A DNA stretch of 55,088 nucleotides from a virus, in the IMG/VR virus record IMGVR_UViG_3300013137_000002, positions 1 through 55,088 of that record; one strand, written 5' to 3'. Both the position numbers and the translations under genes were made by a program. Numbering within the stretch: position 1 is the first letter of the stretch; each line of letters opens with the position of its first letter. Shown here one piece after another: positions 5,228-55,088 of this stretch. The notes below the pieces were generated by a model, which saw only the letters and a list, made by a program, of their open reading frames with translations, was not told the origin of the DNA and made no database searches.

Positions 5228-6973
5228 ATGAGCTTATCGAATACAGCAACTCCTAAGTATTATGCTCAGTTTCGCGAAGAAGTTCTACGAGGGAATATTC
5301 CTGTCTGCAAAGAGATCTCTATGGAGATGAATCGTATAGATGACTTAATCGCAAACCGAGGAGTCTATTATGATGAAGATGCAGTTGAAGGTTTCATCGA
5401 ATATTGCGAATGTGAGCTAACTCTTACGGACGGCGCTGATTTGATGCTCTTAGATACTTTCAAACTTTGGGGGGAGCAAGTCTTCGGTTGGTACTATTTT
5501 GTCGAGCGAAGTGTTTACGAGCCGAATGCTGATGGACATGGTGGTCGCTATGTCCGTAAGATGATTAAGAAACGTTTGATAAACAAACAATACTTAATCG
5601 TAGCTCGTGGTGCTGCTAAATCGATGTATGGTTCTTGTATTCAAAACTACTTCCTTAATGTTGACACATCAACTACTCATCAGATTACTACTGCCCCGAC
5701 AATGAAACAGGCTGACGAAGTCATGTCGCCAATTCGAACTGCTATTACTCGTGCTCGTGGACCACTCTTTCAGTTTTTGACTGAAGGATCTTTACAAAAC
5801 ACCACCGGTTCTAAAGCTAATCGTGTGAAACTCGCCTCGACTAAGAAAGGAATTGAGAACTTCCTAACTGGTTCTATTCTTGAGATTCGTCCGATGAGCG
5901 TTGACAAGTTACAAGGTCTTAGACCGAAAGTAGCAACTGTTGATGAATGGCTGTCTGGTGACATTCGCGAAGATGTTGTTGGAGCAATCGAGCAAGGAGC
6001 CTCAAAGTTAGACGACTATCTTATCATTGCCATGAGTTCTGAAGGTACTGTCCGTAATAGTTCGGGTGATACCATCAAAATGGAACTCATGAACATACTT
6101 AAGGGCGAGTACATAAATCCCCATGTTTCAATTTGGTATTATCGGCTTGACGATATACAAGAAGTTAGTGACCCCGCAATGTGGGTAAAGGCTAATCCAA
6201 ATCTTGGAAAGACTGTTACCTACGAAACTTACCAACTTGATGTTGAGCGTGCTGAGAATGCTCCGGCTACGCGCAATGATATTCTTGCAAAAAGATTTGG
6301 AATTCCAATGGAAGGCTATACCTACTTCTTTACTTATGAAGAGACATTACCTCATCGGAAAAGGGAGTTCTGGTCATTGCCATGTGCCATGGGAGCCGAT
6401 CTTTCACAAGGAGATGACTTCTGTGCCTTTACTTTTCTCTTTCCTTTACCTGGAGAGAAGTTCGGAATTAAGACACGCTGTTATATTTCATCCCTAACAT
6501 TAATGAAACTTCCAGGAGCAATGCGGGTTAAGTACGATCAATTCATCGAAGAGGGTTCTTTGATGGTATTGGAAAGTACGGTTCTTGACATGATGGACGT
6601 CTATGATGATCTTGACAAATTTATACAAGATTGTCAATATGACGTTCGCTGTTTTGGATTCGACCCGTACAATGCTAAAGAGTTTGTAACCCGTTGGGAG
6701 ACTGAGAATGGTCCGTTTGGTATTGAGAAAGTAATTCAAGGTGTAAAGACGGAATCAGTTCCACTTGGAGAGTTAAAAACACTTTCTGAAGAACGATTAC
6801 TTATCTTTGACCAAGAATTAATGTCCTTTGCAATGGGTAATGCGATTACTCTTGAGGACACGAATGGTAATCGTAAATTACTTAAGAAGCGATATGATCA
6901 GAAGATTGATAGTGTCGCTGCTTTGATGGATGCTTGGATCGCATACAAGTTAAATAAAGAAACATTCGAATAA
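5228..6973 (+). CDS. terL: Terminase large subunit
   Basis: A 581-aa packaging motor. The ATPase part has a deviant Walker A, VARGAAKSMYG (about residues 130-140), and an acidic Walker B-like strand VATVDEWLSGD (about 235-245), followed by SSEGTVRNS near the coupling motif. The RNase H-like nuclease part shows GADLSQGDDFCAF (about 392-404) and FGFDPYNAKEF (about 477-487) with the metal-binding aspartates, plus a late acidic IDSVAALMDAW. Length and domain order fit HK97-like large terminases. The enzyme pumps DNA through the portal and cuts concatemers. AAGGAGG precedes the ATG. Confidence 0.9.
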   Translation: MSLSNTATPKYYAQFREEVLRGNIPVCKEISMEMNRIDDLIANRGVYYDEDAVEGFIEYCECELTLTDGADLMLLDTFKLWGEQVFGWYYFVERSVYEPNADGHGGRYVRKMIKKRLINKQYLIVARGAAKSMYGSCIQNYFLNVDTSTTHQITTAPTMKQADEVMSPIRTAITRARGPLFQFLTEGSLQNTTGSKANRVKLASTKKGIENFLTGSILEIRPMSVDKLQGLRPKVATVDEWLSGDIREDVVGAIEQGASKLDDYLIIAMSSEGTVRNSSGDTIKMELMNILKGEYINPHVSIWYYRLDDIQEVSDPAMWVKANPNLGKTVTYETYQLDVERAENAPATRNDILAKRFGIPMEGYTYFFTYEETLPHRKREFWSLPCAMGADLSQGDDFCAFTFLFPLPGEKFGIKTRCYISSLTLMKLPGAMRVKYDQFIEEGSLMVLESTVLDMMDVYDDLDKFIQDCQYDVRCFGFDPYNAKEFVTRWETENGPFGIEKVIQGVKTESVPLGELKTLSEERLLIFDQELMSFAMGNAITLEDTNGNRKLLKKRYDQKIDSVAALMDAWIAYKLNKETFE

Positions 6974-6993: not shown

Positions 6994-8118
6994 ATGAATA
7001 ATTTAACTGCTAGAGAAATTAAGTATTTGAATGAGATCAATACTGAGACCGAAAAAATGAAGTTCGGTAACAGAGTTCAGGAGATTATTGAGGGTATTGC
7101 AGAAGGCGTAGGACCTCAGGGACCTCAAGGTGAAGCCGGTCCTCAAGGTGAAGCCGGCCCTCAGGGAGAACAGGGACTTCAGGGTATTCAGGGTGAAGTT
7201 GGACCTCAAGGGGTTCAGGGGGAACCTGGTCCTTATAGTGGTATAACTGAAGGAAGCCCTGTCAATGCTGTTAACGCAACAAAGACATTGACAATATCTG
7301 GTGTGGTTGTTGATGGAGAAACAGTTACTATTGATAACCCAAATACAGAAGGTACGGATACCTATGAGTTCTCTGCTTCTGCAGCATTAAGTGTAGCGGA
7401 AGGAAATATTGCGGTTGATATTAACGCTGCTACTGTAAAGGCAACGGATGGTTTAACCATGGATACAAATCCAACACCCGGCGACACAATGACTATAGGA
7501 ACAAAGGTATTCACTTTCGTTCCTAATGGTACAGCTAATGCTGATGGTGAGATCGATGTAGAGGCACTTCTCGCAGATACACAGGTTAATGTTATTGCTG
7601 CTATCAGAGGTACAGATCATAATGATCCTCATCCTTTGGTAACTTGCGATGAAGCTTTCTTAGCTGATGTTCTTGCGATTACAGCCCTTGTTGGTGGTGC
7701 TGCTGGTAATACTATTGCTACTACTGAAACATTCACTGCCGGAACAAATGTATTCAGCGCCATCAATCTTCAAAATGGAACCGATTGTTCAGCAGCAGAT
7801 GCGGTAACAGCTCTTGTAACTGCTATTACAGCTTCTGATACACAAGGAGTAGGTGCTGTTGATGGTGCAGGTGATACGGTAGTAATAACTGCTGATGTTG
7901 CTGGCGTTGATGCTAACACCATTGCTATCGGTGAAGATATGGATAATGGTACATTTGCTGGCGGAGCAGTTCTGCTAAGTGGTGGTATAGATGGCACTGT
8001 AGGCCAACCATGGGAAGCTAAAGCAGACTCTACATATCTGTATGTATGTAATAACGCTGCTGGTAATACCATATCTGGTAAGAACTGGCGTAGAATAGCC
8101 CTTGGTGCCGTATATTAA
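6994..8118 (+). CDS. Collagen-like capsid or surface decoration protein
   Basis: A 374-aa protein. After a short helical N-terminus comes a G-P-Q/G-E-A/G-x-y collagen-like run (about residues 39-80; bases 7108-7230). A threonine- and alanine-rich beta-type region follows, in which similar strands recur (DTMTIGTKVFTFVPNGTANA; DTVVITADVAGVDANTIAI), ending in YLYVCNNAAGNTISGKNW. Collagen repeats trimerise, so a fibre or decoration protein on the head is likely. The position between terminase and portal is unusual for a tail fibre and supports a head fibre. The repetitive part may vary in length between relatives. Confidence 0.65.
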   Translation: MNNLTAREIKYLNEINTETEKMKFGNRVQEIIEGIAEGVGPQGPQGEAGPQGEAGPQGEQGLQGIQGEVGPQGVQGEPGPYSGITEGSPVNAVNATKTLTISGVVVDGETVTIDNPNTEGTDTYEFSASAALSVAEGNIAVDINAATVKATDGLTMDTNPTPGDTMTIGTKVFTFVPNGTANADGEIDVEALLADTQVNVIAAIRGTDHNDPHPLVTCDEAFLADVLAITALVGGAAGNTIATTETFTAGTNVFSAINLQNGTDCSAADAVTALVTAITASDTQGVGAVDGAGDTVVITADVAGVDANTIAIGEDMDNGTFAGGAVLLSGGIDGTVGQPWEAKADSTYLYVCNNAAGNTISGKNWRRIALGAVY

Positions 8119-8138
8119 TCTTATAAGGAGGGGATTTG

Positions 8139-9476
8139 ATGCCGGAACTATTAGCCACAAGATTAAAACATGCCTGGAATGCGTTCAGGAATAGGGACCC
8201 AACTCAAGTTTCCTCTGAGAATAGAGGTATTGGTTATGGTTCCTATGGCCGACAAGATCGGGTTAGGATGCATGTAACCAATGAGCGGTCTGTTATTATC
8301 TCGGTTTATAACCGAATTGCTATTGATGTTTCTGCTGTAAACATTCAACATGTCCGTCTCGATCAAAATGGAAGGTTCGCAGAGACAATCGCTTCTGGGT
8401 TAAATTACATTCTTACATCTGAAGCTAACATAGATCAGACAAATCGTGCGTTTATACAAGATATTGTTATGTCGATGTTTGATGAGGGTGTAGTTGCAGT
8501 TGTGCCGGTGGATACAACAATCGATCCTAAAATTTCTGGATCTTTCGATGTTCAATCGATGCGTACAGGGCGAATTATCTCATGGTTTCCAAAGCATGTA
8601 CGTGTTCGGCTTTACAATGAGAGCAAAGGAATTCAAGAAGAACTTACACTTCCAAAGAGTATGGTCGCAATTATTGAGAATCCCTTATATTCAGTAATGA
8701 ATGAGCCGAATAGTACCTTAAAACGATTACTTAAGAAACTATCAATCCTGGACGCCATTGATGAGCAAAGCGGTGCAGGTAAACTTGACTTAATAATTCA
8801 ACTTCCTTATGTTATTAAGACAGAAGCAAGGAGAAAGCAAGCAGAAGAACGTCGTAAAGACATTGAAGTACAACTTTCTGGTTCTAAGTATGGTATTGCT
8901 TATACCGATGGAACGGAAAGAGTCACACAGTTGAATCGTCCTGCTGAAAACAATCTCATGACACAAATTCAGTATTTAACAAAGATGCTTTATAGTCAAT
9001 TGGGACTTACTGAAGAAGTGTTTAATGGAACAGCCGATGAAAAGACTATGTTAAACTACAACAATAGAACAGTTGTGCCAATTCTGTTAGCTATCATTGC
9101 TGAATTTAAGCGTAAATTCTTGACAAAAACCGCTAGAACCCAGAATCAGTCGATTGAATATTTTAGAGATGCTTTTAGTCTTGTTCCGGTAACCGAGTTG
9201 GCTAATATTGCCGATAAGTTCACTAGAAACGAGATCCTATCATCAAATGAAATTCGATCTGTTATTGGTTATAAACCTTCGAATAATCCGGCGGCTGATG
9301 AACTACGTAATAAGAACCTTAATAAATCTTCTGTTCCTGGATCCGGAGTTGGAGGTGGAGAAGTAAGTCAAAATGGGGTAACAAGTGATCAGGCTATTAA
9401 TCTCTTCGACGAGTTACTAAACGGATTGGAGGGCGATATTGACTCGATCATAGGGGGTGGTGAGGGTGCGAGTTAA
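8139..9476 (+). CDS. Portal protein
   Basis: A 445-aa portal, starting at ATG 8139 behind AAGGAGGGG; a TTG three bases earlier is too close to the site. Recognisable parts are the N-terminal RDRVRMHVTNERSVIISVYN, the wing region with the internal sequence ISWFPKHVRVRLYNESKG, and the clip/stem region YLTKMLYSQLGLTEEVFNG with ELRNKNLNKSS near the C-terminus, a pattern typical of HK97-type portals. It forms the twelve-subunit ring through which TerL packages DNA. The end overlaps the next gene, so the two are translationally coupled. Confidence 0.85.
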   Translation: MPELLATRLKHAWNAFRNRDPTQVSSENRGIGYGSYGRQDRVRMHVTNERSVIISVYNRIAIDVSAVNIQHVRLDQNGRFAETIASGLNYILTSEANIDQTNRAFIQDIVMSMFDEGVVAVVPVDTTIDPKISGSFDVQSMRTGRIISWFPKHVRVRLYNESKGIQEELTLPKSMVAIIENPLYSVMNEPNSTLKRLLKKLSILDAIDEQSGAGKLDLIIQLPYVIKTEARRKQAEERRKDIEVQLSGSKYGIAYTDGTERVTQLNRPAENNLMTQIQYLTKMLYSQLGLTEEVFNGTADEKTMLNYNNRTVVPILLAIIAEFKRKFLTKTARTQNQSIEYFRDAFSLVPVTELANIADKFTRNEILSSNEIRSVIGYKPSNNPAADELRNKNLNKSSVPGSGVGGGEVSQNGVTSDQAINLFDELLNGLEGDIDSIIGGGEGAS

Positions 9477-25643: not shown

Positions 25644-26471
25644 ATGGGAAAACTTACTACATATCCTGCAGATACAAGATTCACTGCTGGTGATATCCTT
25701 ATTAAGGATGGAGCTGGTGGTACAAAAAAAATCTTAGCCTCAGATGCAGCAATCGAATTTGCTGGTTTGGTTTCGGCGATCAACCATAGAAATATCTACA
25801 GAGGTAAAAATTTAGGTACTGCGATTACTGCGGCGCAGCAAACGGCAATACAAACCGGAACGTTTGATGATCTTTTTATTGGTGATTATTGGACATTAAA
25901 CGGTCATGTTTATGAGATTGCTGACATGGATTATTGGTACAACTGTGGAGACACAGCGTTTACAAAGCATCATCTTGTAGTGGTGCCAAGAAACAAAATG
26001 TATGATGCCACAATGAACGCTACAAACATTACGGATGGTGGATACGTCGGATCTCTTATGTATACTGCGAATTTAAATACCGCAAAAACACAAATTACAA
26101 CAGATTTTGGCGCGCTTCTTCTCTCACACAGACAATACTTTACAAATGCAGTTACAGCTGGCGTTCCTTCTGGAGGAGCATGGTTCGATTCCACAGTCGA
26201 CCTTATGAATGAAGTAATGGTTTATGGATCGCATTTCTTTGCTCCGGCAGGAGATGGTGTGTTAATCCCAACCAGATATACAATCGATAATTCACAATTG
26301 GCGTTATTCAGACTGAATCCAAGAGCATACAAAAACAGAGAATATATGTGGCTTAGAGACGTCGTGTCTGCGGCTTATTTCGCTCGTGTGTTCTACTATG
26401 GCAATGCGGACTGCGCCAACGCGTCGTACTCTATTGGGGTTCGTCCGGCATTCGCGGTTGGGTTAGTATAA
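25644..26471 (+). CDS. DGR target protein 1 (variable tail-tip protein)
   Basis: A 275-aa protein. The N-terminal 60 residues (KLTTYPADTRFTAGDILIKD) look like a virion attachment domain. Residues about 60-275 form a DUF6273-like, C-type-lectin or formylglycine-enzyme-like fold: GDYWTLNGHVYEIADMDYWY, MWLRDVVSAAYFAR and YSIGVRPAF. The last 35 residues are encoded by variable repeat VR1 (26367-26448), which differs from the template at 27500-27581 only where the template has A. The diversified loop is the likely receptor-binding surface. A GGGGC-CTTGT-GCCCC hairpin follows the stop. Confidence 0.9.
   Translation: MGKLTTYPADTRFTAGDILIKDGAGGTKKILASDAAIEFAGLVSAINHRNIYRGKNLGTAITAAQQTAIQTGTFDDLFIGDYWTLNGHVYEIADMDYWYNCGDTAFTKHHLVVVPRNKMYDATMNATNITDGGYVGSLMYTANLNTAKTQITTDFGALLLSHRQYFTNAVTAGVPSGGAWFDSTVDLMNEVMVYGSHFFAPAGDGVLIPTRYTIDNSQLALFRLNPRAYKNREYMWLRDVVSAAYFARVFYYGNADCANASYSIGVRPAFAVGLV
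26367..26448 (+). repeat. DGR variable repeat 1 (VR1)
   Basis: An 82-bp block aligned without gaps to the template repeat at 27500-27581. It starts TCTGCGGCT and ends GGGGTTCGTCCGG in both. I count 14 differences, and every one is at a template adenine, for example AAT to TAT, AAT to CGT and AAC to TTC. Such adenine-limited change is the mark of DGR mutagenic retrohoming. The invariant 3' end is the likely initiation site. Confidence 0.95.
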
Positions 26472-26475
26472 TCTA

Positions 26476-26490
26476 GGGGCCTTGTGCCCC
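26476..26490 (+). promoter_or_regulatory. DGR target-site hairpin after VR1
   Basis: GGGGC-CTTGT-GCCCC lies 27 bases after the end of VR1. The second target has a hairpin with the same CTTGT loop at nearly the same distance (37325-37341). DGRs such as that of phage BPP-1 need a hairpin just after the variable repeat for efficient homing. The following CTATCTTTTT could also let it terminate transcription. Confidence 0.75.
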
Positions 26491-27499: not shown

Positions 27500-27581
27500 T
27501 CTGCGGCTAATTTCGCTAATGTGAACAACAATGGCAATACGAACTACAACAACGCGTCGAACTCTAATGGGGTTCGTCCGG
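27500..27581 (+). repeat. DGR template repeat (TR)
   Basis: An 82-bp non-coding block very rich in AAC and AAT codon-like triplets, in frame with the targets. It is the source of variation: VR1 and VR2 differ from it at adenines. Its RNA, probably extending from the avd gene into the reverse transcriptase leader, is copied with errors at A and inserted in the targets. Downstream bases diverge from VR after GTCCGG. Confidence 0.95.
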
Positions 27582-27691: not shown

Positions 27692-28882
27692 ATGACTTAT
27701 GAGGAAATTGTTTGCGACGCCAATAACTTGTATATGGCCTATAAGGCTTCTGTAAAAGGAAGTAAATGGAAAGAAACGACTCAAAAGTTTATGATGAATT
27801 TCTTGAGGTACATATTCTCCATACAAGAGGATCTTATTACAAGAAACTTACAAAATGGTAAAACTGATGAGTTCTCACTTTCAGAAAGAGGTCGAATTAG
27901 GCCTATTACAAGTCTTCAAACTAAAGATAGAATTATTCGTCATGTACTATGTGACGAGGTCTTGTTACCTGAGGTTAGGAAACATATTATATATGATAAT
28001 GGAGCCTCGATAAAAGGACGAGGTATATCTCATTCAAGAAAACGTTTTGAAGTACATTTACATAAGTATTACAAGATGTATGGTAATGAAGGTTATATTT
28101 TGTTTGGTGATTTTAGCAAGTTCTATGATAATATAATTCATGAGATTGCTAAGAAAGAGCTACTTAGATTATTTGACGATGATGAATTCCTTGATTGGCT
28201 ATTTACTCTTATATTTAATGATTTTAGGATTGATGTGTCCTATATGTCTGATAAAGAGTATGAGAACTGTATGACCGACATATTTAATAAGTTAGAATAT
28301 AGGCTAATACCTAAAGAACTTTTAACCGGAAATAAATGGATGGACAAATCCGTTAATATTGGAGACCAATTAAGTCAAATTATCGGTATATATTATCCAT
28401 ATCGAATAGACAACTATGTGAAATACGTAAGAAGTCAAAAATTTTACGGACGTTATATGGATGATTGGTACATTATGGGCCCAAACAAGAAGGAATTACA
28501 AGACTTATTGGATAATATTCGAGTAATAGCGAATGAATTGGGTATACATATCAATGAGAAAAAGACTCATATAGTCAAGATAAGTAGCACTTACAAATAC
28601 CTTCAAGTGAAGTATACTCTTACTAAAGATGGAAAAGTAATTAAAAGAATCAATCCAACTCGTGTTACTGCGATGCGTAGAAAACTTAAGAAGTTAGCAA
28701 ATAAAGTCGATATTAGTGATATTTGTTACGAAAATGTCGAAAATATGTTTAGAGGTTGGATGGGAAGTTTCTATAAACTTTTATCTACGCAACAAAGAAA
28801 AAGTCTTATACAACTTTACGAAAAGTTATTCAATAAAAATATTAAGGTTGCTAATAAGAAGTTAATCATATTTAATATGTAA
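27692..28882 (+). CDS. DGR reverse transcriptase
   Basis: A 396-aa reverse transcriptase. Palm motif A is LFGDFSKFYDNI (about residues 137-148), and the catalytic YMDD is in KFYGRYMDDWYIMG (about 250-263). Before it lies VNIGDQLSQIIGIYY, matching the I-G-x-x-x-S-Q motif that separates DGR enzymes from group II intron and retron enzymes. A basic thumb follows (RKLKKLANKV). It copies the TR RNA with random bases opposite A. It has only a weak ribosome site (ACGGTGAATAATCT), so expression may be low. Confidence 0.92.
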   Translation: MTYEEIVCDANNLYMAYKASVKGSKWKETTQKFMMNFLRYIFSIQEDLITRNLQNGKTDEFSLSERGRIRPITSLQTKDRIIRHVLCDEVLLPEVRKHIIYDNGASIKGRGISHSRKRFEVHLHKYYKMYGNEGYILFGDFSKFYDNIIHEIAKKELLRLFDDDEFLDWLFTLIFNDFRIDVSYMSDKEYENCMTDIFNKLEYRLIPKELLTGNKWMDKSVNIGDQLSQIIGIYYPYRIDNYVKYVRSQKFYGRYMDDWYIMGPNKKELQDLLDNIRVIANELGIHINEKKTHIVKISSTYKYLQVKYTLTKDGKVIKRINPTRVTAMRRKLKKLANKVDISDICYENVENMFRGWMGSFYKLLSTQQRKSLIQLYEKLFNKNIKVANKKLIIFNM

Positions 28883-30701: not shown

Positions 30702-30728
30702 TTCGCATGTATAACATGGTATTTAATG
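30702..30728 (+). promoter_or_regulatory. Repeated promoter-like motif, copy 2
   Basis: TTCGC at 30702-30706, AC at 30714-30715 and TTTAAT at 30722-30727, then GAA. It drives the 34-aa membrane peptide gene at 30754. Confidence 0.6.
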
Positions 30729-33645: not shown

Positions 33646-33667
33646 TTTTTGGAAAGGAGGCTTGGTA

Positions 33668-34129
33668 ATGATAGTTAAGAATCTAATTGAAAATGTGATT
33701 TCCAAGGATAAGTCAAAGGAGGAACTATGTTATTTAGCCTTCGTTGATAGTCTAACGAAAACATATAATCGTAACATGTTAGAGGAGTTTCGTAAGGAAT
33801 TTGACTCTATGGATATTTTTGTTACGATAATTGACATAGATAATCTCAAAATGATTAATGACACAAAAGGTCATGAAGAAGGCGACATATTCATCAAAAG
33901 CTTTGCAGAAGAAATTAAGAAATATTCAGAATGGGTATTTAGACTTGGTGGTGATGAGTTTCTTGTTCTTAACAAATCTCATATCACTTTTAATGTACTT
34001 GGTATATCATATGGAACTATATTTAAGCTGTCAAATATGTCTTTAAATGAGGCAATGCGTATGGCTGATTTCTTAATGTACAAAAACAAAAGGGAAAGGA
34101 GTATTTCTAATGAAAAAAGAGATACTTGA
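33668..34129 (+). CDS. GGDEF-domain protein (diguanylate cyclase-like)
   Basis: A 153-aa protein from ATG 33668 behind GGAAAGGAGG. It is almost entirely one GGDEF domain: FVDSLTKTYNRNMLEEF, then VTIIDIDNLKMINDTKGHEE, and the signature WVFRLGGDEFLVLN (about residues 90-103). The metal-binding Asp and the GGDEF loop are intact, but the C-terminal part is shorter than in full cyclases. It could make cyclic di-GMP or bind GTP or a cyclic nucleotide. No sensor domain or allosteric R-x-x-D site is clear. It is unusual in a phage and may manipulate host signalling or nucleotide-based defence (inference). Confidence 0.8.
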   Translation: MIVKNLIENVISKDKSKEELCYLAFVDSLTKTYNRNMLEEFRKEFDSMDIFVTIIDIDNLKMINDTKGHEEGDIFIKSFAEEIKKYSEWVFRLGGDEFLVLNKSHITFNVLGISYGTIFKLSNMSLNEAMRMADFLMYKNKRERSISNEKRDT

Positions 34130-34251: not shown

Positions 34252-35517
34252 ATGATTACTGAATTCACCAAGGAAGCACGTATGGCTGATTTAATTGATA
34301 TTCTAAATGACGTTGCACGTAAGTATTATACGCCTAATAATTATGACGACGAGTCGCCAATAAGTGATGCTCAGTACGACAGATATTTAAGCGAGTTAAT
34401 ACATCTTGAGGCTGAAACGGGTATAAGATTAGAAGGCTCTCCAACAATGAAAGTTGGATTTACAGAACCAGAAGAAGGAAAGATTAAGCATTACTCACCA
34501 ATTCTTTCACTTAAAGATACAAAAAATATTGATGAGCTGTTACGTTTTCTTGGTGAGAAGGAAGGACTCTTATCCTGGAAGCTTGATGGGGTAAGTATTG
34601 TTTTATATTACTCATTTGGTACTCTACAGCAAGCTGTTAGTCGAGGAGACGGACATTATGGTAAAGATATTACTAAAAACGTTGTGATGATGCGTCATGT
34701 CCCTATGACTATTCCGATTAAAAATAACGTCATTGTCCGCGGAGAAGGATGCATGTCTCTTAAAGACTTCGAACAGATTAAAAAGACAAGAGAAGGAGAG
34801 AAGTATAGTAATCCACGTAACATGACAAGCGGGCTTATTAATGCTACAAGGACAACGAATGTTTTGTTACGACATATGAACTTCATAGCCCATTCGGTTA
34901 TCTTACTCGAAGGGCACGGACGTGATATCTCAACAAGACACAAACAACTTGGACATCTTAAGACTCTTGGATTTAGAATTGTACCACATACAAAAGTGCT
35001 TAACTTCGAACTTAATGCTGAGATTGATAAGTACACTAGAGAAGTTGAGAATTTTGAGTTCCCAGTTGATGGTCTTGTGTTAACACTGAATGATATTCAC
35101 TATGGGGATTCATTAGGTGCCACAGCAAAGTTTCCTAAGCACAGTATGGCGTTCAAATGGCCCGATGAGAAAGCGACAACGACAGTAACAGGAATGAAAT
35201 GGAGTGTAAGTACGACTGGATTAATAACGCCAGTTGTCTTATTTACACCTGTTTGGCTTGAGGGAACAGAAGTTAAGCAAGCAAATCTCCATACCTTAAA
35301 GATATTTGAGGGGTTGGTTATAGGCGTAGGTGATACAATCGAGATATTTAAGGCCAACAAAATTATTCCTGAGGTATCGGAGAATTTAACCCGAAGTGGT
35401 ACTGAGGAAATTCCAAGGACTTGTCCTGTATGTGGTTCACCAACACATATTATCGTAACAGACAAGACACGTAAATTATATTGTTATCCTTGTGGTGGAA
35501 AAGAAGACTTTAAGTAG
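34252..35517 (+). CDS. ligA: NAD-dependent DNA ligase, short form
   Basis: A 421-aa ligase. It starts with the NAD-binding Ia-type part (YDDESPISDAQYDRYLSELI), has the adenylation motif LLSWKLDGVSIVLYY with the active-site Lys (about residue 110), and contains NPRNMTSGLINATRT, then FPVDGLVLTLNDIHYG, MAFKWPDEKATTTV and an OB-fold part with TPVVLFTPVWLEGTEVKQAN. It ends with a four-Cys zinc finger (CPVCGSP and CYPCGG). The helix-hairpin-helix and BRCT domains of bacterial LigA are absent, so it is a minimal phage enzyme. It would seal nicks in phage DNA. Confidence 0.9.
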   Translation: MITEFTKEARMADLIDILNDVARKYYTPNNYDDESPISDAQYDRYLSELIHLEAETGIRLEGSPTMKVGFTEPEEGKIKHYSPILSLKDTKNIDELLRFLGEKEGLLSWKLDGVSIVLYYSFGTLQQAVSRGDGHYGKDITKNVVMMRHVPMTIPIKNNVIVRGEGCMSLKDFEQIKKTREGEKYSNPRNMTSGLINATRTTNVLLRHMNFIAHSVILLEGHGRDISTRHKQLGHLKTLGFRIVPHTKVLNFELNAEIDKYTREVENFEFPVDGLVLTLNDIHYGDSLGATAKFPKHSMAFKWPDEKATTTVTGMKWSVSTTGLITPVVLFTPVWLEGTEVKQANLHTLKIFEGLVIGVGDTIEIFKANKIIPEVSENLTRSGTEEIPRTCPVCGSPTHIIVTDKTRKLYCYPCGGKEDFK

Positions 35518-35544
35518 GTCGCAGAAATTACACAGAGTTTAATG
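35518..35544 (+). promoter_or_regulatory. Repeated promoter-like motif, copy 13
   Basis: GTCGC at 35518-35522 directly after the ligase stop, AC at 35530-35531, TTTAAT at 35538-35543. It precedes structured RNA 2. Confidence 0.6.
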
Positions 35545-35639
35545 AAGAGATGTAGACTTAATAGGTCGAGCACTAATTAAAAAGATTAGTGACATAACGA
35601 TGCGTGCGTTATGGTAATACATCTCTTCTTTATATTTTT
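35544..35639 (+). ncRNA. Small cloverleaf-like structured RNA 2
   Basis: GAAGAGATGTA (35544-35554) pairs perfectly with TACATCTCTTC (35618-35628), closing a multi-branch fold. Inside are GAC-TTAATAG-GTC, a seven-pair hairpin CACTAAT/ATTAGTG with a seven-base loop, and a seven-pair hairpin CATAACG/CGTTATG with a seven-base loop. TTTATATTTTT follows as a U-tract. The layout recalls a tRNA cloverleaf, but the TTCGA loop and D-loop bases are missing. No reading frame fits. A regulatory or tRNA-mimic RNA is possible. Confidence 0.65.
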
Positions 35640-35662: not shown

Positions 35663-36508
35663 ATGAACGGAAGAGGTCTCACAGAAATAACAAAAAACCT
35701 CGGGGGAATAATTTCTAAAAATAGTCCTACTATTCTAACTGGAGTAGCAGTGGCTGGACTCGTAACAACAACGATAATGGGAATTAGAGCAACCCCCAAA
35801 GCACTTTCGATCATCGACGACTTTGTATGGAGTAAATATGAGGAGGAAGTCGATAATCCGGAAGAAATGTCATTCGCCGAATGGCTTGGCGTAGACACTG
35901 ATGGATATTCTTGGAGGGATAAGGCTAATTACTTATCTAAGAGAGAAACCATTAAACTTACATGGAAGACGTATTTACCAACAATTGCCGTTGGAGCGGT
36001 TACAATCGCTTGTATCATTGGTGCAAATCATATTTCTTTAAGGCGTAATGCTGCCCTGGCTAGTATCTATGGCCTTACAGAAGCAGCATTCAAGGAATAT
36101 CAGACAAAAGTTGTTGAGACTCTTGGTAAGAATAAGGAACTCAAGATACGAGATGAGATTTCGGCAGATCGTGTTAAGAGAAATCCTCCCGGTATGAATG
36201 AGGTTATTCTAACAGGTAGAGGACCAGTGTTATGTTTTGACAGTCTAAGTGGAAGATATTTCAGAAGTGACATCGAACAGATTCGCAGAGTTGTCAATGA
36301 GTTAAATCGTAATATGCTCAGTGATATGTTCCTGACACTCAATGAGTTATATTATGGTCTTGGATTAGCTGGGATAGCTCTTGGGGACCAGATGGGCTGG
36401 GATATTGATAAAGGAATGGTTGAGATAAGTTTCAGTACTCAACTCACAGAAGAAGGGGAACCTTGTTTAGTGCTTAATTATAGCATCGAACCAAAATATA
36501 TAAAATAA
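35663..36508 (+). CDS. DUF6353-like phage membrane protein, copy 1
   Basis: A 281-aa protein paralogous to the one at 43711. It opens with KNLGGIISKNSPTILTGVAV and a hydrophobic helix, then a charged loop, a second membrane segment (LPTIAVGAVTIACIIGANHI) followed by SLRRNAALASIYGLTEAAFK, and ends with a long soluble part containing LSDMFLTLNELYYGLGLAGI and GDQMGWDIDKGMVEISF. The two helices followed by a cytoplasmic domain are the family pattern. Function unknown; two versions in one genome suggest a dosage or partner need. Confidence 0.7.
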   Translation: MNGRGLTEITKNLGGIISKNSPTILTGVAVAGLVTTTIMGIRATPKALSIIDDFVWSKYEEEVDNPEEMSFAEWLGVDTDGYSWRDKANYLSKRETIKLTWKTYLPTIAVGAVTIACIIGANHISLRRNAALASIYGLTEAAFKEYQTKVVETLGKNKELKIRDEISADRVKRNPPGMNEVILTGRGPVLCFDSLSGRYFRSDIEQIRRVVNELNRNMLSDMFLTLNELYYGLGLAGIALGDQMGWDIDKGMVEISFSTQLTEEGEPCLVLNYSIEPKYIK

Positions 36509-36768: not shown

Positions 36769-37320
36769 ATGAAAGTATTAAGAAAAAGAGAATTGGAAGT
36801 TAAGAACGTTAGAGTTGGTGACCAAATTGTCATTCAGTTGACTGGATTTGGAGAATTTACAGCGACTGCACAGAAAATTACTGAAAAGGGAACGCTGTTT
36901 TTGTTCGATGATTGTGTTACGGAGCGGCCTATGAACGAGAAAAACACCAACGAAGGTGGTTATAAGAAATCAGATCTTTGTAAGTGGATTAACACTGTGT
37001 TATTGAAGGCGTTCCCTAAAGACATGATAAAAAGAATTAGCGACCTCAGTATTCCTACATACGGTCAGATGTTCGGCCATGATGATTGGTATAACCGTGT
37101 AATGGAGCCTGATAATGACGAGCAACTTCCTCTTATGAAAAAGAGAAAGAATCGCATTGCTGATTTCAATGATACCTACGAATGGTACTGGATGCAAAAC
37201 GCAACTAAAAAAGAAGTATCTGCGGCTCATTTCGCTCGTGTGGCCAACTATGGCGATACGAGCTGCAACGGCGCGTCGTACTCGATTGGGGTTCGTCCGG
37301 CATTCGTGTTGGTTAATTAA
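36769..37320 (+). CDS. DGR target protein 2 (non-tail, DUF6273-like)
   Basis: A 183-aa protein. The N-terminal half is a beta-rich DUF6273-like fold (VGDQIVIQLTGFGEFTATAQ, KKSDLCKWINTVLLKAF), then IPTYGQMFGHDDWY, and the last third reads WYWMQNATKKEVSAAHFA and YSIGVRPAF. Bases 37219-37300 are VR2, which aligns without gaps to the template at 27500-27581. The gene lies among the early accessory genes, with no virion-attachment domain, so it is probably made inside the cell. The hairpin that marks DGR targets follows the stop. A binding or decoy protein with a diversified pocket is likely. Confidence 0.88.
   Translation: MKVLRKRELEVKNVRVGDQIVIQLTGFGEFTATAQKITEKGTLFLFDDCVTERPMNEKNTNEGGYKKSDLCKWINTVLLKAFPKDMIKRISDLSIPTYGQMFGHDDWYNRVMEPDNDEQLPLMKKRKNRIADFNDTYEWYWMQNATKKEVSAAHFARVANYGDTSCNGASYSIGVRPAFVLVN
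37219..37300 (+). repeat. DGR variable repeat 2 (VR2)
   Basis: An 82-bp block from TCTGCGGCT to GGGGTTCGTCCGG. Compared with TR it has changes at adenines (for example AAT to CAT, AAC to GCC, AAC to AGC) and a single non-adenine change, TCT to TCG. It shares CGT, TGC, TAC and ATT replacements with VR1 at some codons but differs at others, so it has its own mutagenesis history. Confidence 0.93.
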
Positions 37321-37324
37321 ATCT

Positions 37325-37341
37325 CCGCCCCTTGTGGGCGG
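37325..37341 (+). promoter_or_regulatory. DGR target-site hairpin after VR2
   Basis: CCGCCC-CTTGT-GGGCGG lies 24 bases after VR2. The loop is identical to that after VR1, the stem sequence is different, as expected for a structure-dependent homing signal. Confidence 0.75.
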
Positions 37342-37378: not shown

Positions 37379-38896
37379 ATGCCAAATAAACATGCTGTAA
37401 AGATTATTGCGCTAGATTTCGACGGAACGCTTGTTCAGAACAAATATCCTGAAGTAGGCGAACCCATTATGAAAAATGTCAAGAAAATCAAAGAGGAAAT
37501 CGCCAAAGGTGCCAGGGTTATTCTCTGGACAAATCGCGTTGACGAATATTTACAGGCGGCTGTCGATTTCTGCAATGATCAAGGTATTCGCCTGGAAGCT
37601 GTTAACGAGAATTTACCGGAGGTAATTGCTGAGTTTGGTGGCAATCCAAGAAAGATATCCGCCAATGAGTACTGGGACGACAGAGCTGTAAATATGTCTG
37701 AGAAGGATATTGGCGAGTTCTCAGATGGGTATCATACGTTCAACGACCTATACAAGCAGCGGTTATATTTATCGGCAGCTTTATTTAATTCCTATAAAGG
37801 TCGAGCATGGAAATCCAGAAAGCATTCGGACGGACAGCCTTGTTTTTGTGGAGAGTACTTTATTGTCGGTATTGACACTCCTTTGGGACCATATACATAT
37901 CACTACGAGAATTGTCATTGGGATATGTTCAACTGCAAGGAACTGGATATAGCTCCTGAATGGGATGGTCACACTGATAAGGATGTACATCGGCTTGATT
38001 CCTTATGTAGAGAAGGACATTCTCCAAAGGATCCTGAAATAGCCTGTGAGTGTAAAAGACCGCAAAAGCGTAAGCTATTTTCCCAGGTAATGTACTATAT
38101 TTGTAGGTTCTTCCGACAAATAAGAAATCGTATAATGTATATTTTCAGACCGAGAACAGGTATGACAGGCTGGGCGTATAAAGAGGTTGAGTTGGCCTGT
38201 AAGAGTGAAAGGGAAGATAGTAAAACTCCCGATGGCGATTGGGATTATGGATGCGCTTGTTATGGAAGTGCCCTAAAGGCTTTCCGAAGTCTTACTAAAG
38301 ACGGTCATAGTGGAATGAGTATTGGTTTTACTCAGAATATTCTGAACCGACTTATTGATGGAAGACCGTTAACACCTATTGGTGACACATCTGATATTTG
38401 GAATGATATTTCAGACATAAGTGGTCTTAAGGGCGAGGAGGTTAACTATCAATGCAAGCGTATGAGCGCTTTGTTCAAGTATGTATATGCGGACGGTAGT
38501 GTGAAATATAAGAACATTGATTCACATTACTGCATCAACATCCACAATCAAAGCACATATCATAGTGGTCTTGTGCAGAGAATTATGGACGAGATGTATC
38601 CGATTACAATGCCTTATATGCCCGGAGAACCTATCAAGGTTTATTGTGATGATATTCTTACTGATAAGAAGAATGGTGATTTTGATACTGTTGCTGTATT
38701 CTATGCAATAAAACCTGATGGCGAGAAGGTCGAAATTAATCGCTTCTTTAAAGAATCCAAATCCGATACCGGCTGGGATGAAATAACGAAAGAGGAATAT
38801 TCTGAACGGAAAGTTATTGCGGAGGACCTTGTAACTCGGATTAAGAAAGAGGTGGATGAGGCCTTTAAGGTACCTCCACATTTAATGACTGAATAA
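37379..38896 (+). CDS. HAD-type phosphatase fused to two phage domains
   Basis: A 505-aa fusion from ATG 37379 (GAAAGGAGATT upstream). Residues 1-110 are a HAD-superfamily hydrolase: IIALDFDGTLV (nucleophile Asp), VILWTNRVDEYL and EYWDDRAVNM. Residues about 125-200 are a phage domain with YKQRLYLSAALFNSYKGRAW and DTPLGPYTYHYE. Residues about 255-505 contain MTGWAYKEVELACKSERED, DGHSGMSIGFTQNILNRLID and CINIHNQSTYHSGLVQRIMD, otherwise seen as a separate small phage protein. It may act on nucleotides or a phosphorylated host product. The fusion of three modules is unusual. Confidence 0.75.
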   Translation: MPNKHAVKIIALDFDGTLVQNKYPEVGEPIMKNVKKIKEEIAKGARVILWTNRVDEYLQAAVDFCNDQGIRLEAVNENLPEVIAEFGGNPRKISANEYWDDRAVNMSEKDIGEFSDGYHTFNDLYKQRLYLSAALFNSYKGRAWKSRKHSDGQPCFCGEYFIVGIDTPLGPYTYHYENCHWDMFNCKELDIAPEWDGHTDKDVHRLDSLCREGHSPKDPEIACECKRPQKRKLFSQVMYYICRFFRQIRNRIMYIFRPRTGMTGWAYKEVELACKSEREDSKTPDGDWDYGCACYGSALKAFRSLTKDGHSGMSIGFTQNILNRLIDGRPLTPIGDTSDIWNDISDISGLKGEEVNYQCKRMSALFKYVYADGSVKYKNIDSHYCINIHNQSTYHSGLVQRIMDEMYPITMPYMPGEPIKVYCDDILTDKKNGDFDTVAVFYAIKPDGEKVEINRFFKESKSDTGWDEITKEEYSERKVIAEDLVTRIKKEVDEAFKVPPHLMTE

Positions 38897-39210: not shown

Positions 39211-39250
39211 GATGCTTAAGGAAAACTTAGGCATCTTTGCTTTTATTTTT
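39211..39250 (+). terminator. Terminator after the 38964 gene
   Basis: GATGCTTAAG-GAAAA-CTTAGGCATC, ten pairs with one G-U, followed by TTTGCTTTTATTTTT. Confidence 0.85.
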
Positions 39251-39269
39251 ATTGGGAGGTTACAAACTT

Positions 39270-39881
39270 ATGAATAAATTAGATAGAAACAAAAGAAAAT
39301 GGAAGGTTAAACCACGCTTTTATGTTATTTGTACATTGATAGTGGCGATTATTACATCTCTGGTTATATTTAACCTGTCAAATGGTGTTGAAAACGAAGA
39401 GACATTTAATGACACAACTGTATTATCTGTAATAGAAACTATAAAAGATATTCCAATTCCGACCACGCCAGCTCCAATAAAAGAGATTAAACTTCATTAT
39501 GGGTTTACGGACGAAGATGTTTACCTTCTTGCACAGGTATTAAGTGGTGGAGGAAATGTTGATGGCGATGGGGAATATGATATAGATTTTCAGGAAGAAA
39601 TAAATTACTATGAAGTAGGTAAAGTTCTTAATGTAATAATGAATCGTGTACGCTCAGAGGACTTTCCGGATACTGTTAAGGACGTTGTATTACAAAAAGG
39701 ACAATTCAGTGTTATTCCACGTAATCTTACTAGGGAACCATCCGATATTGCACTACAAACAGTGCGTGAATGGTGTACGGCCTATGATAATTACATAAAT
39801 CTCGTACAAGTTGTACCTACAAATCATTTATTTTTTACCGGTAATGGCACTATAAATATAACAAGAGCAAAATATAAATGA
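39270..39881 (+). CDS. SleB/CwlJ-like cell wall hydrolase, possibly inactive
   Basis: A 203-aa protein with a basic start, a membrane anchor (FYVICTLIVAIITSLVIFNL) and a Pro/Thr-rich linker. From about residue 85 is a SleB-like (Hydrolase_2) fold: DVYLLAQVLSGGG, then EVGKVLNVIMNRVRSEDFP, VVLQKGQFSVI and NHLFFTGNGTIN. In active family members the first motif has a catalytic Glu (G-E-A); here SGGG stands in its place, so it may lack lytic activity. It could bind the wall or act in entry or exclusion. Confidence 0.65.
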   Translation: MNKLDRNKRKWKVKPRFYVICTLIVAIITSLVIFNLSNGVENEETFNDTTVLSVIETIKDIPIPTTPAPIKEIKLHYGFTDEDVYLLAQVLSGGGNVDGDGEYDIDFQEEINYYEVGKVLNVIMNRVRSEDFPDTVKDVVLQKGQFSVIPRNLTREPSDIALQTVREWCTAYDNYINLVQVVPTNHLFFTGNGTINITRAKYK

Positions 39882-54932: not shown

Positions 54933-55088
54933 ATGAGTGATGATTTAAAACATATTGGAATGCCAAGGCGCTCAGGAAGATACCCCTGGGGGTCAGGCGA
55001 AGATCCTTATCAAAGGGCCGTTAGCTTTCGCTCCCATATTCAAGAACTTCGTGATAAAGGCTTAAGTGATGTAGAAATTGCTCGTGGC
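54933..55088 (+). CDS. 5' part of the YonO-like RNA polymerase gene
   Basis: ATG 54933, behind GGAGGG, opens the 883-aa polymerase that continues at base 1. The first residues (MSDDLKHIGMPRRSG and RYPWGSGEDPYQR) resemble N-termini of phage proteins with a P-W-G-S-G motif. Residues about 45-63 (GLSDVEIARGEGITT) begin the first helix-turn-helix. It follows the nuclease gene by only four bases, so replication and polymerase genes may be co-transcribed. Confidence 0.85.
   Translation, partial: MSDDLKHIGMPRRSGRYPWGSGEDPYQRAVSFRSHIQELRDKGLSDVEIARG
54966..55088. repeat. Terminal direct repeat, right copy
   Basis: Identical to bases 1-123; the redundant end of the circular map. Confidence 0.95.

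Follow-up and report, generated by a model that had tools for sequence, protein, structure and literature searches.

VR2 is confirmed as a true second variable repeat of the DGR that lies at 25.6-28.9 kb in the window, the whole 55,088-nucleotide stretch of phage DNA analysed here. At the level of sequence it is settled that, in its family, T2 (target 2), the protein that carries VR2, is a genuine second target, functional and under active diversification. T2 is read as a DGR-diversified, early-region and probably non-virion protein that binds a changing conflict partner inside the cell, and this reading is given a probability of about 0.6.

One DGR and two target genes

A repeat search finds one repeat family in the window, with three members, VR1, the template repeat (TR) and VR2. 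The phage is of a gut type, and a perfect 123-bp terminal direct repeat (1-123 and 54966-55088) is consistent with a circular or complete assembly. The features of the DGR and of its two targets are as follows.

25644-26471, + strand: T1 (target 1), 275 aa, with VR1 at the C terminus (profile searches and position)
26367-26448, + strand: VR1, changed relative to TR at 14/24 A sites and 0/58 other sites
26476-26490, + strand: hairpin GGGGC-CTTGT-GCCCC after VR1, GC stem and CYYGT loop
26998-27489, + strand: Avd-like accessory protein (phrog_3206, 'Avd protein of DGR', E=2.5e-10)
27500-27581, + strand: TR (repeat alignment)
27692-28882, + strand: DGR reverse transcriptase (RT; RVT_1 E=2.5e-15, phrog_1423 E=5e-57)
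36769-37320, + strand: T2, 183 aa, single-domain DUF6273 protein with VR2 at the C terminus (Pfam, PHROG)
37219-37300, + strand: VR2, aligned with TR over 82 bp without gaps and changed at 13/24 A sites and 1/58 other sites
37325-37341, + strand: hairpin CCGCCC-CTTGT-GGGCGG just 3' of the T2 stop codon, GC stem and CYYGT loop

The DGR cassette is complete, with T1, the Avd-like protein, TR and RT, and the features of DGR membership are present: an RT near TR, TR/VR differences confined to adenines, and Avd. A YMDD box and an IGDQLSQ motif are read in the RT translation. The T1 gene is situated between tail genes and the holin gene, and T1 also carries DUF6273. The adenine bias of the changes is strong in both repeats (Fisher p = 7e-8 for VR2 and p = 9e-10 for VR1). 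Realignment reproduces exactly the original prediction of a gap-free 82-bp match whose sole non-adenine change is TCT to TCG, and the predicted distance of 10 kb between template and VR2 holds for the layout of the window. T2 is ~50 kb away from RT on the contig in two sister prophages that are integrated. The range first given for the T2 gene, 36769-37341, has the right start, but the gene stops at 37320 and the additional nucleotides hold the GC hairpin.

A GC stem with a CYYGT loop is found only at these two places in 55 kb. In relatives, the hairpin follows 29/29 T1 VRs and 12/14 T2 VRs; of the two exceptions, one is truncated where the locus ends. Its stem has two different sequences in relatives, both of which preserve the pairing, and TR lacks the hairpin. 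The hairpin at 37325-37341 is a putative part of the T2 target site. In BPP-1, a 3' hairpin is required for homing, and both stem pairing and loop sequence matter (PMC3240598). The window hairpins resemble that element in being GC stem loops just 3' of a VR, with free stem sequence, conserved pairing and a constant loop. They differ in having a 5-6 bp stem and a 5-nt CYYGT loop, as opposed to a 7-10 bp stem and a 4-nt GRNA loop. Because the BPP-1 loop is GRNA, the loop in the window is considered a variant of the BPP-1 element.

Taken together, one DGR (RT, Avd and one TR) would serve both T1 and T2. TR RNA would be reverse-transcribed into cDNA that carries errors at adenines and homes independently into VR1 and VR2, both sites apparently being marked by VR identity and by the CYYGT-loop GC hairpin just 3' of the stop codon. 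Homing itself is proposed by analogy with the known DGR mechanism.

Active diversification of T2 in related phages

Relatives were fetched from IMG/VR, ten by T2 and 45 by RT, and complete records were scanned for T2 and for motifs of the VR. A near-identical record of the window phage was not found in the phage collection. A scan of bacterial genomes added 30 further loci, mostly from Lachnospiraceae. Comparison of VRs with the TR of their own genome covers 14 T2 VRs from 12 phage records (L016 and L027 are left out, as the automatic TR assignment was wrong). Differences from the own TR fall at 209/330 template-A sites as against 9/790 other sites. These 9 non-A mismatches compare with a permuted mean of 56 and a minimum of 24 over 20,000 permutations. 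T2 VRs therefore follow their own TR at non-A sites, as would result from continued copying of each genome's TR into its T2.

The prophages of Clostridium sp. 1001271st1 and [Clostridium] citroniae have an identical TR. These sister prophages show 4 differences outside VR2 in the 13.5 kb around T2, and 13 differences within the 80 bp of VR2, all of them at TR adenines. VR2 thus varies between near-identical prophages, and an absence of population variation does not hold among close relatives. The original claim that T2 is a second DGR target is borne out for its family by own-TR tracking and by the A-only differences between sister prophages. Co-variation of VR1 and VR2 within genomes, proposed as a check, does not appear, and changes are shared no more within genomes than between them (p = 0.22). 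This argues that the two repeats are rewritten independently, and with no within-genome correlation, gene conversion between VR1 and VR2 is ruled out as the source of VR2 variation.

The single non-A difference in the VR2 of the window might suggest a passive or relic copy without function, maintained through recombination with VR1 or left over from earlier homing. This is very improbable. Purifying selection acts on the T2 body outside the VR, where the pairs with more divergence give dN/dS 0.06-0.13, and dN/dS in the VR is >1. The own-TR tracking, the fresh A-only differences between near-identical prophages, the conserved hairpin and the lack of correlation between VR1 and VR2 likewise speak against a relic, and for the T2 family this explanation is rejected on the tracking, the sister prophages and dN/dS.

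The T2 protein and its early-region setting

T2 matches Pfam DUF6273 (E=2.6e-11) and, over residues 1-182, phrog_21980 (E=3.7e-76). VR2 encodes the last ~30 residues, which are C-terminal in DUF6273. Hydropathy predicts no TM segment, Pfam and PHROG give no further domain, and no signal peptide is evident. The earlier view that T2 is without a tail-attachment domain agrees with this single-domain protein in which DUF6273 alone is matched; the suggestion that it may be secreted is unsupported. An anti-defence assignment was not obtained for T2 from PADLOC or Pfam, and a search of PDB sequences gave no match. AlphaFold gives a medium-quality model (pLDDT 71, pTM 0.74). Its best structural matches are viral DUF6273 models (E 2e-6) and one PDB entry, an IgA peptidase (E=1.7e-3). 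The C-lectin fold of DUF6273 targets is taken from the literature (PMC10743442).

The surroundings of T2 in the window include the following.

29582-54029, + strand: TTTCGCGnnnATnACAnAGnCTnTAATGAA copies, e.g. at 30703, 30889, 33240, 33431, 35519, 38899, 39885, 43555 and 54029 (PWM scan)
35517-35550, + strand: TTTCGCGnnnATnACAnAGnCTnTAATGAA copy ahead of the DUF6353-T2-Tad3 gene cluster, which is bounded by the next copy at ~38899
35663-36508, + strand: DUF6353 protein upstream of T2, two TM segments predicted by hydropathy (Pfam E=3.6e-78)
37382-38896, + strand: WDGH and Tad3 (type I Thoeris inhibitor) protein, the downstream neighbour of T2 (Pfam WDGH 6e-38, Tad3 1.6e-28)

The motif TTTCGCGnnnATnACAnAGnCTnTAATGAA is present in 17 copies, all on the + strand and all within 29.5-54 kb (p = 2e-6). 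It is absent from the late genes, T1, TR and RT of the window. It recurs in relatives, where it brackets T2-DUF6353 units. Because of its TATAAT-like end, the motif is a possible early promoter, perhaps for the host RNA polymerase or for one of phage origin. An 820-aa protein encoded at 157-2619 matches phrog_4291, annotated as RNA-dependent RNA polymerase, and has a weak Pfam RdRP match. It is a candidate QDE-1-like phage RNA polymerase and might read TTTCGCGnnnATnACAnAGnCTnTAATGAA.

The gene order in the window is NAD-dependent ligase, DUF6353, T2 and WDGH/Tad3. Among the relatives compared, T2 is situated ahead of the DNA polymerase/primase gene, or of its lead-up genes where the locus ends early, in 16/16, and DUF6353 genes surround T2 in these 16 loci. 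By the motif and by this pre-polymerase synteny, T2 is non-late in context, in agreement with its original placement among early genes. The further description of the locus as an accessory region stands in so far as the region is early-type; it is not a variable accessory island, the locus being conserved in relatives. Two further genes of the window encode a GGDEF (diguanylate cyclase) domain protein (33662-34129, Pfam E=8e-18) with an intact RLGGDEF motif and, in the early region, a membrane-anchored cell-wall hydrolase (39237-39881, Hydrolase_2, E=5e-11), with similar genes in some relatives.

The T2-DUF6353 association is common, and for the DUF6353 proteins of the window two TM segments are predicted. 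A DUF6353 gene starts <=200 bp downstream of T2 in 41 of the ~60 copies (62 rows, two of which, in L092 and L097, are T1 genes). A longer T2 form of ~290 aa (L108:10001-10879, L110:10001-10852, L119, L121 and L124) overlaps the DUF6353 start and runs ~110 residues beyond the VR and hairpin; no Pfam domain was found in this extension. The most distant T2 homologues have no DUF6353 link, and a literature search found no paper that names DUF6353 among those listed. Several prophages carry two T2 genes (L095 at 5927-6481 and 7870-8418; L092, L107, L111-L114, L117, L120, L122, L123 and L132). Where the DGR is in view, one TR thus serves three VRs. The Tad3 neighbour is a 504-aa, fusion-like product with a HAD-like N terminus. 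As a general clue to T2, linkage to Tad3 is rejected, since none of the 16 compared loci has a Tad3 gene close to T2.

A gene of the early region may still code for a virion decoration. T2 might be a second receptor binder, or a decoration of the virion, whose gene lies apart from the late genes and which is assembled onto the particle via a partner. DUF6273 C-lectin domains do occur in tail-type targets, in T1 and, by a weak match, in a JCL1032 tail fibre protein, and pairs of DUF6273 targets in gut phages have been assumed to be receptor binders (PMC10743442). Nevertheless, a virion role is unlikely. The features of tail-fibre-type targets, an attachment region and a location in the late tail module, are absent from the single-domain T2. 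The early motif, the pre-polymerase synteny, the pairing with a membrane protein gene and the location of the homologue of phage Fontainebleau among replication genes all stand against it. In addition, residue use differs from that of T1 at one VR position, with Gly in 11/19 T2 as against 3/34 T1 sequences (p = 2e-4). It is by regulation, synteny and architecture that T2 is argued not to be a tail protein.

The preferred reading is that T2 is a soluble, single-domain binder of C-lectin type (DUF6273), encoded in an early-type region and usually together with the two-TM DUF6353 protein. It most likely remains outside the virion and would act inside the infected or lysogenic cell, probably near the membrane. 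Its partner may be a fast-changing host or competitor protein, either a defence factor or an exclusion component, with which the DGR would let T2 keep pace. The membrane-protein partner and the precedents of conflict type make an intracellular, membrane-near conflict binder the best guess.

A special form of this explanation has T2 and DUF6353 acting in membrane exclusion by the lysogen, with diversification directed against injected or tail components of superinfecting phages. The two-TM partner, a neighbourhood rich in TM proteins together with a cell-wall hydrolase, and the fact that many relatives are prophages are in its favour, as is a tyrosine integrase situated a few kb upstream of T2 in a sister prophage. 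T2 itself has neither signal peptide nor TM segment, however, and an integrase or resolvase was not recognised in the window, where two integrase families were sought. This form is therefore regarded as doubtful.

Meaning and comparison with known systems

Phage DGRs are usually read as host-range switches that act on tail proteins. The T2 family is conserved, under purifying selection outside the VR, actively rewritten, and outside the late module by regulation and synteny. Its members are found in many phages and prophages of Lachnospiraceae, and one cultured phage that is unrelated to these has it as well. That the second target is actively diversified in sister phages suggests that phage evolution extends to binding proteins with a function inside the cell. 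If T2 does act there, phages run targeted hypermutation on a conflict protein. More tentatively, the membrane-linked T2-DUF6353 cassettes, with their early promoter-like motif and tandem copies, might be a family of intracellular adaptive counter-defence or exclusion receptors of Lachnospiraceae phages, apart from host-range switching. The question is testable now, since relatives are present, for example, in the isolates [Ruminococcus] torques ATCC 27756 and [Clostridium] citroniae WAL-17108, and in the inducible Acutalibacter muris phage Fontainebleau.

Fontainebleau (ON453893) has a T2 homologue with 41% identity, encoded between DNA polymerase I and helicase. The homologue and a tail-side gene match a TR beside the phage's RT, the former over 88 bp, and hairpins follow both VRs. 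The arrangement of a TR, a tail-side target and a T2 homologue with VR and hairpin is as in the window, but the phage genome is distinct and the homologue has no DUF6353 neighbour. The published description of Fontainebleau does not mention a DGR (PMC10197239).

Quimbyviruses have a distal second DGR target near defence or counter-defence genes (Benler et al. 2021, PMC8008677). As in the window, one DGR has a tail-side target and, at a distance from the structural module, a second target of C-lectin type, a fold that T2 would share. Quimbyviruses differ in being Bacteroides phages. Their distal target is encoded on the opposite strand, with methyltransferases and a MutY-like gene around it, and they are not reported to have tandem copies or an early cassette that is linked to DUF6353 and controlled by a motif. 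In the sections drawn on here, a further study describes a second VR distal from the RT and near counter-defence genes, e.g. a methyltransferase, in four species of inducible gut prophages, and there, unlike in the window phage, the DGRs are mostly in Bacteroidota phages (Nature 2025, PMC12629997). Bacuni phages also have a distant second target (PMC8143477), and in tentaclin phages a single DGR serves two targets, of which one contains a DUF6273 domain (PMC10743442). In the parts of the source used, Faecalibacterium phages Lelie and CP11 are described as having two DUF6273 targets, one large and one small, for a single DGR, with the VR at the DUF6273 C terminus, and both VRs of CP11 vary among cognate genomes (PMC11792537). 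Lelie and CP11 were not returned by the T2 search of the phage collection.

For a few gut phages, second targets remote from the DGR and close to counter-defence genes are thus already on record, and T2 is a conserved variant of these. New, as far as the literature was compared, are a conserved early-region target family in Lachnospiraceae phages with its DUF6353 and motif context, the tandem T2 copies, the CYYGT hairpin and the proof, at the level of sequence, that diversification is ongoing.
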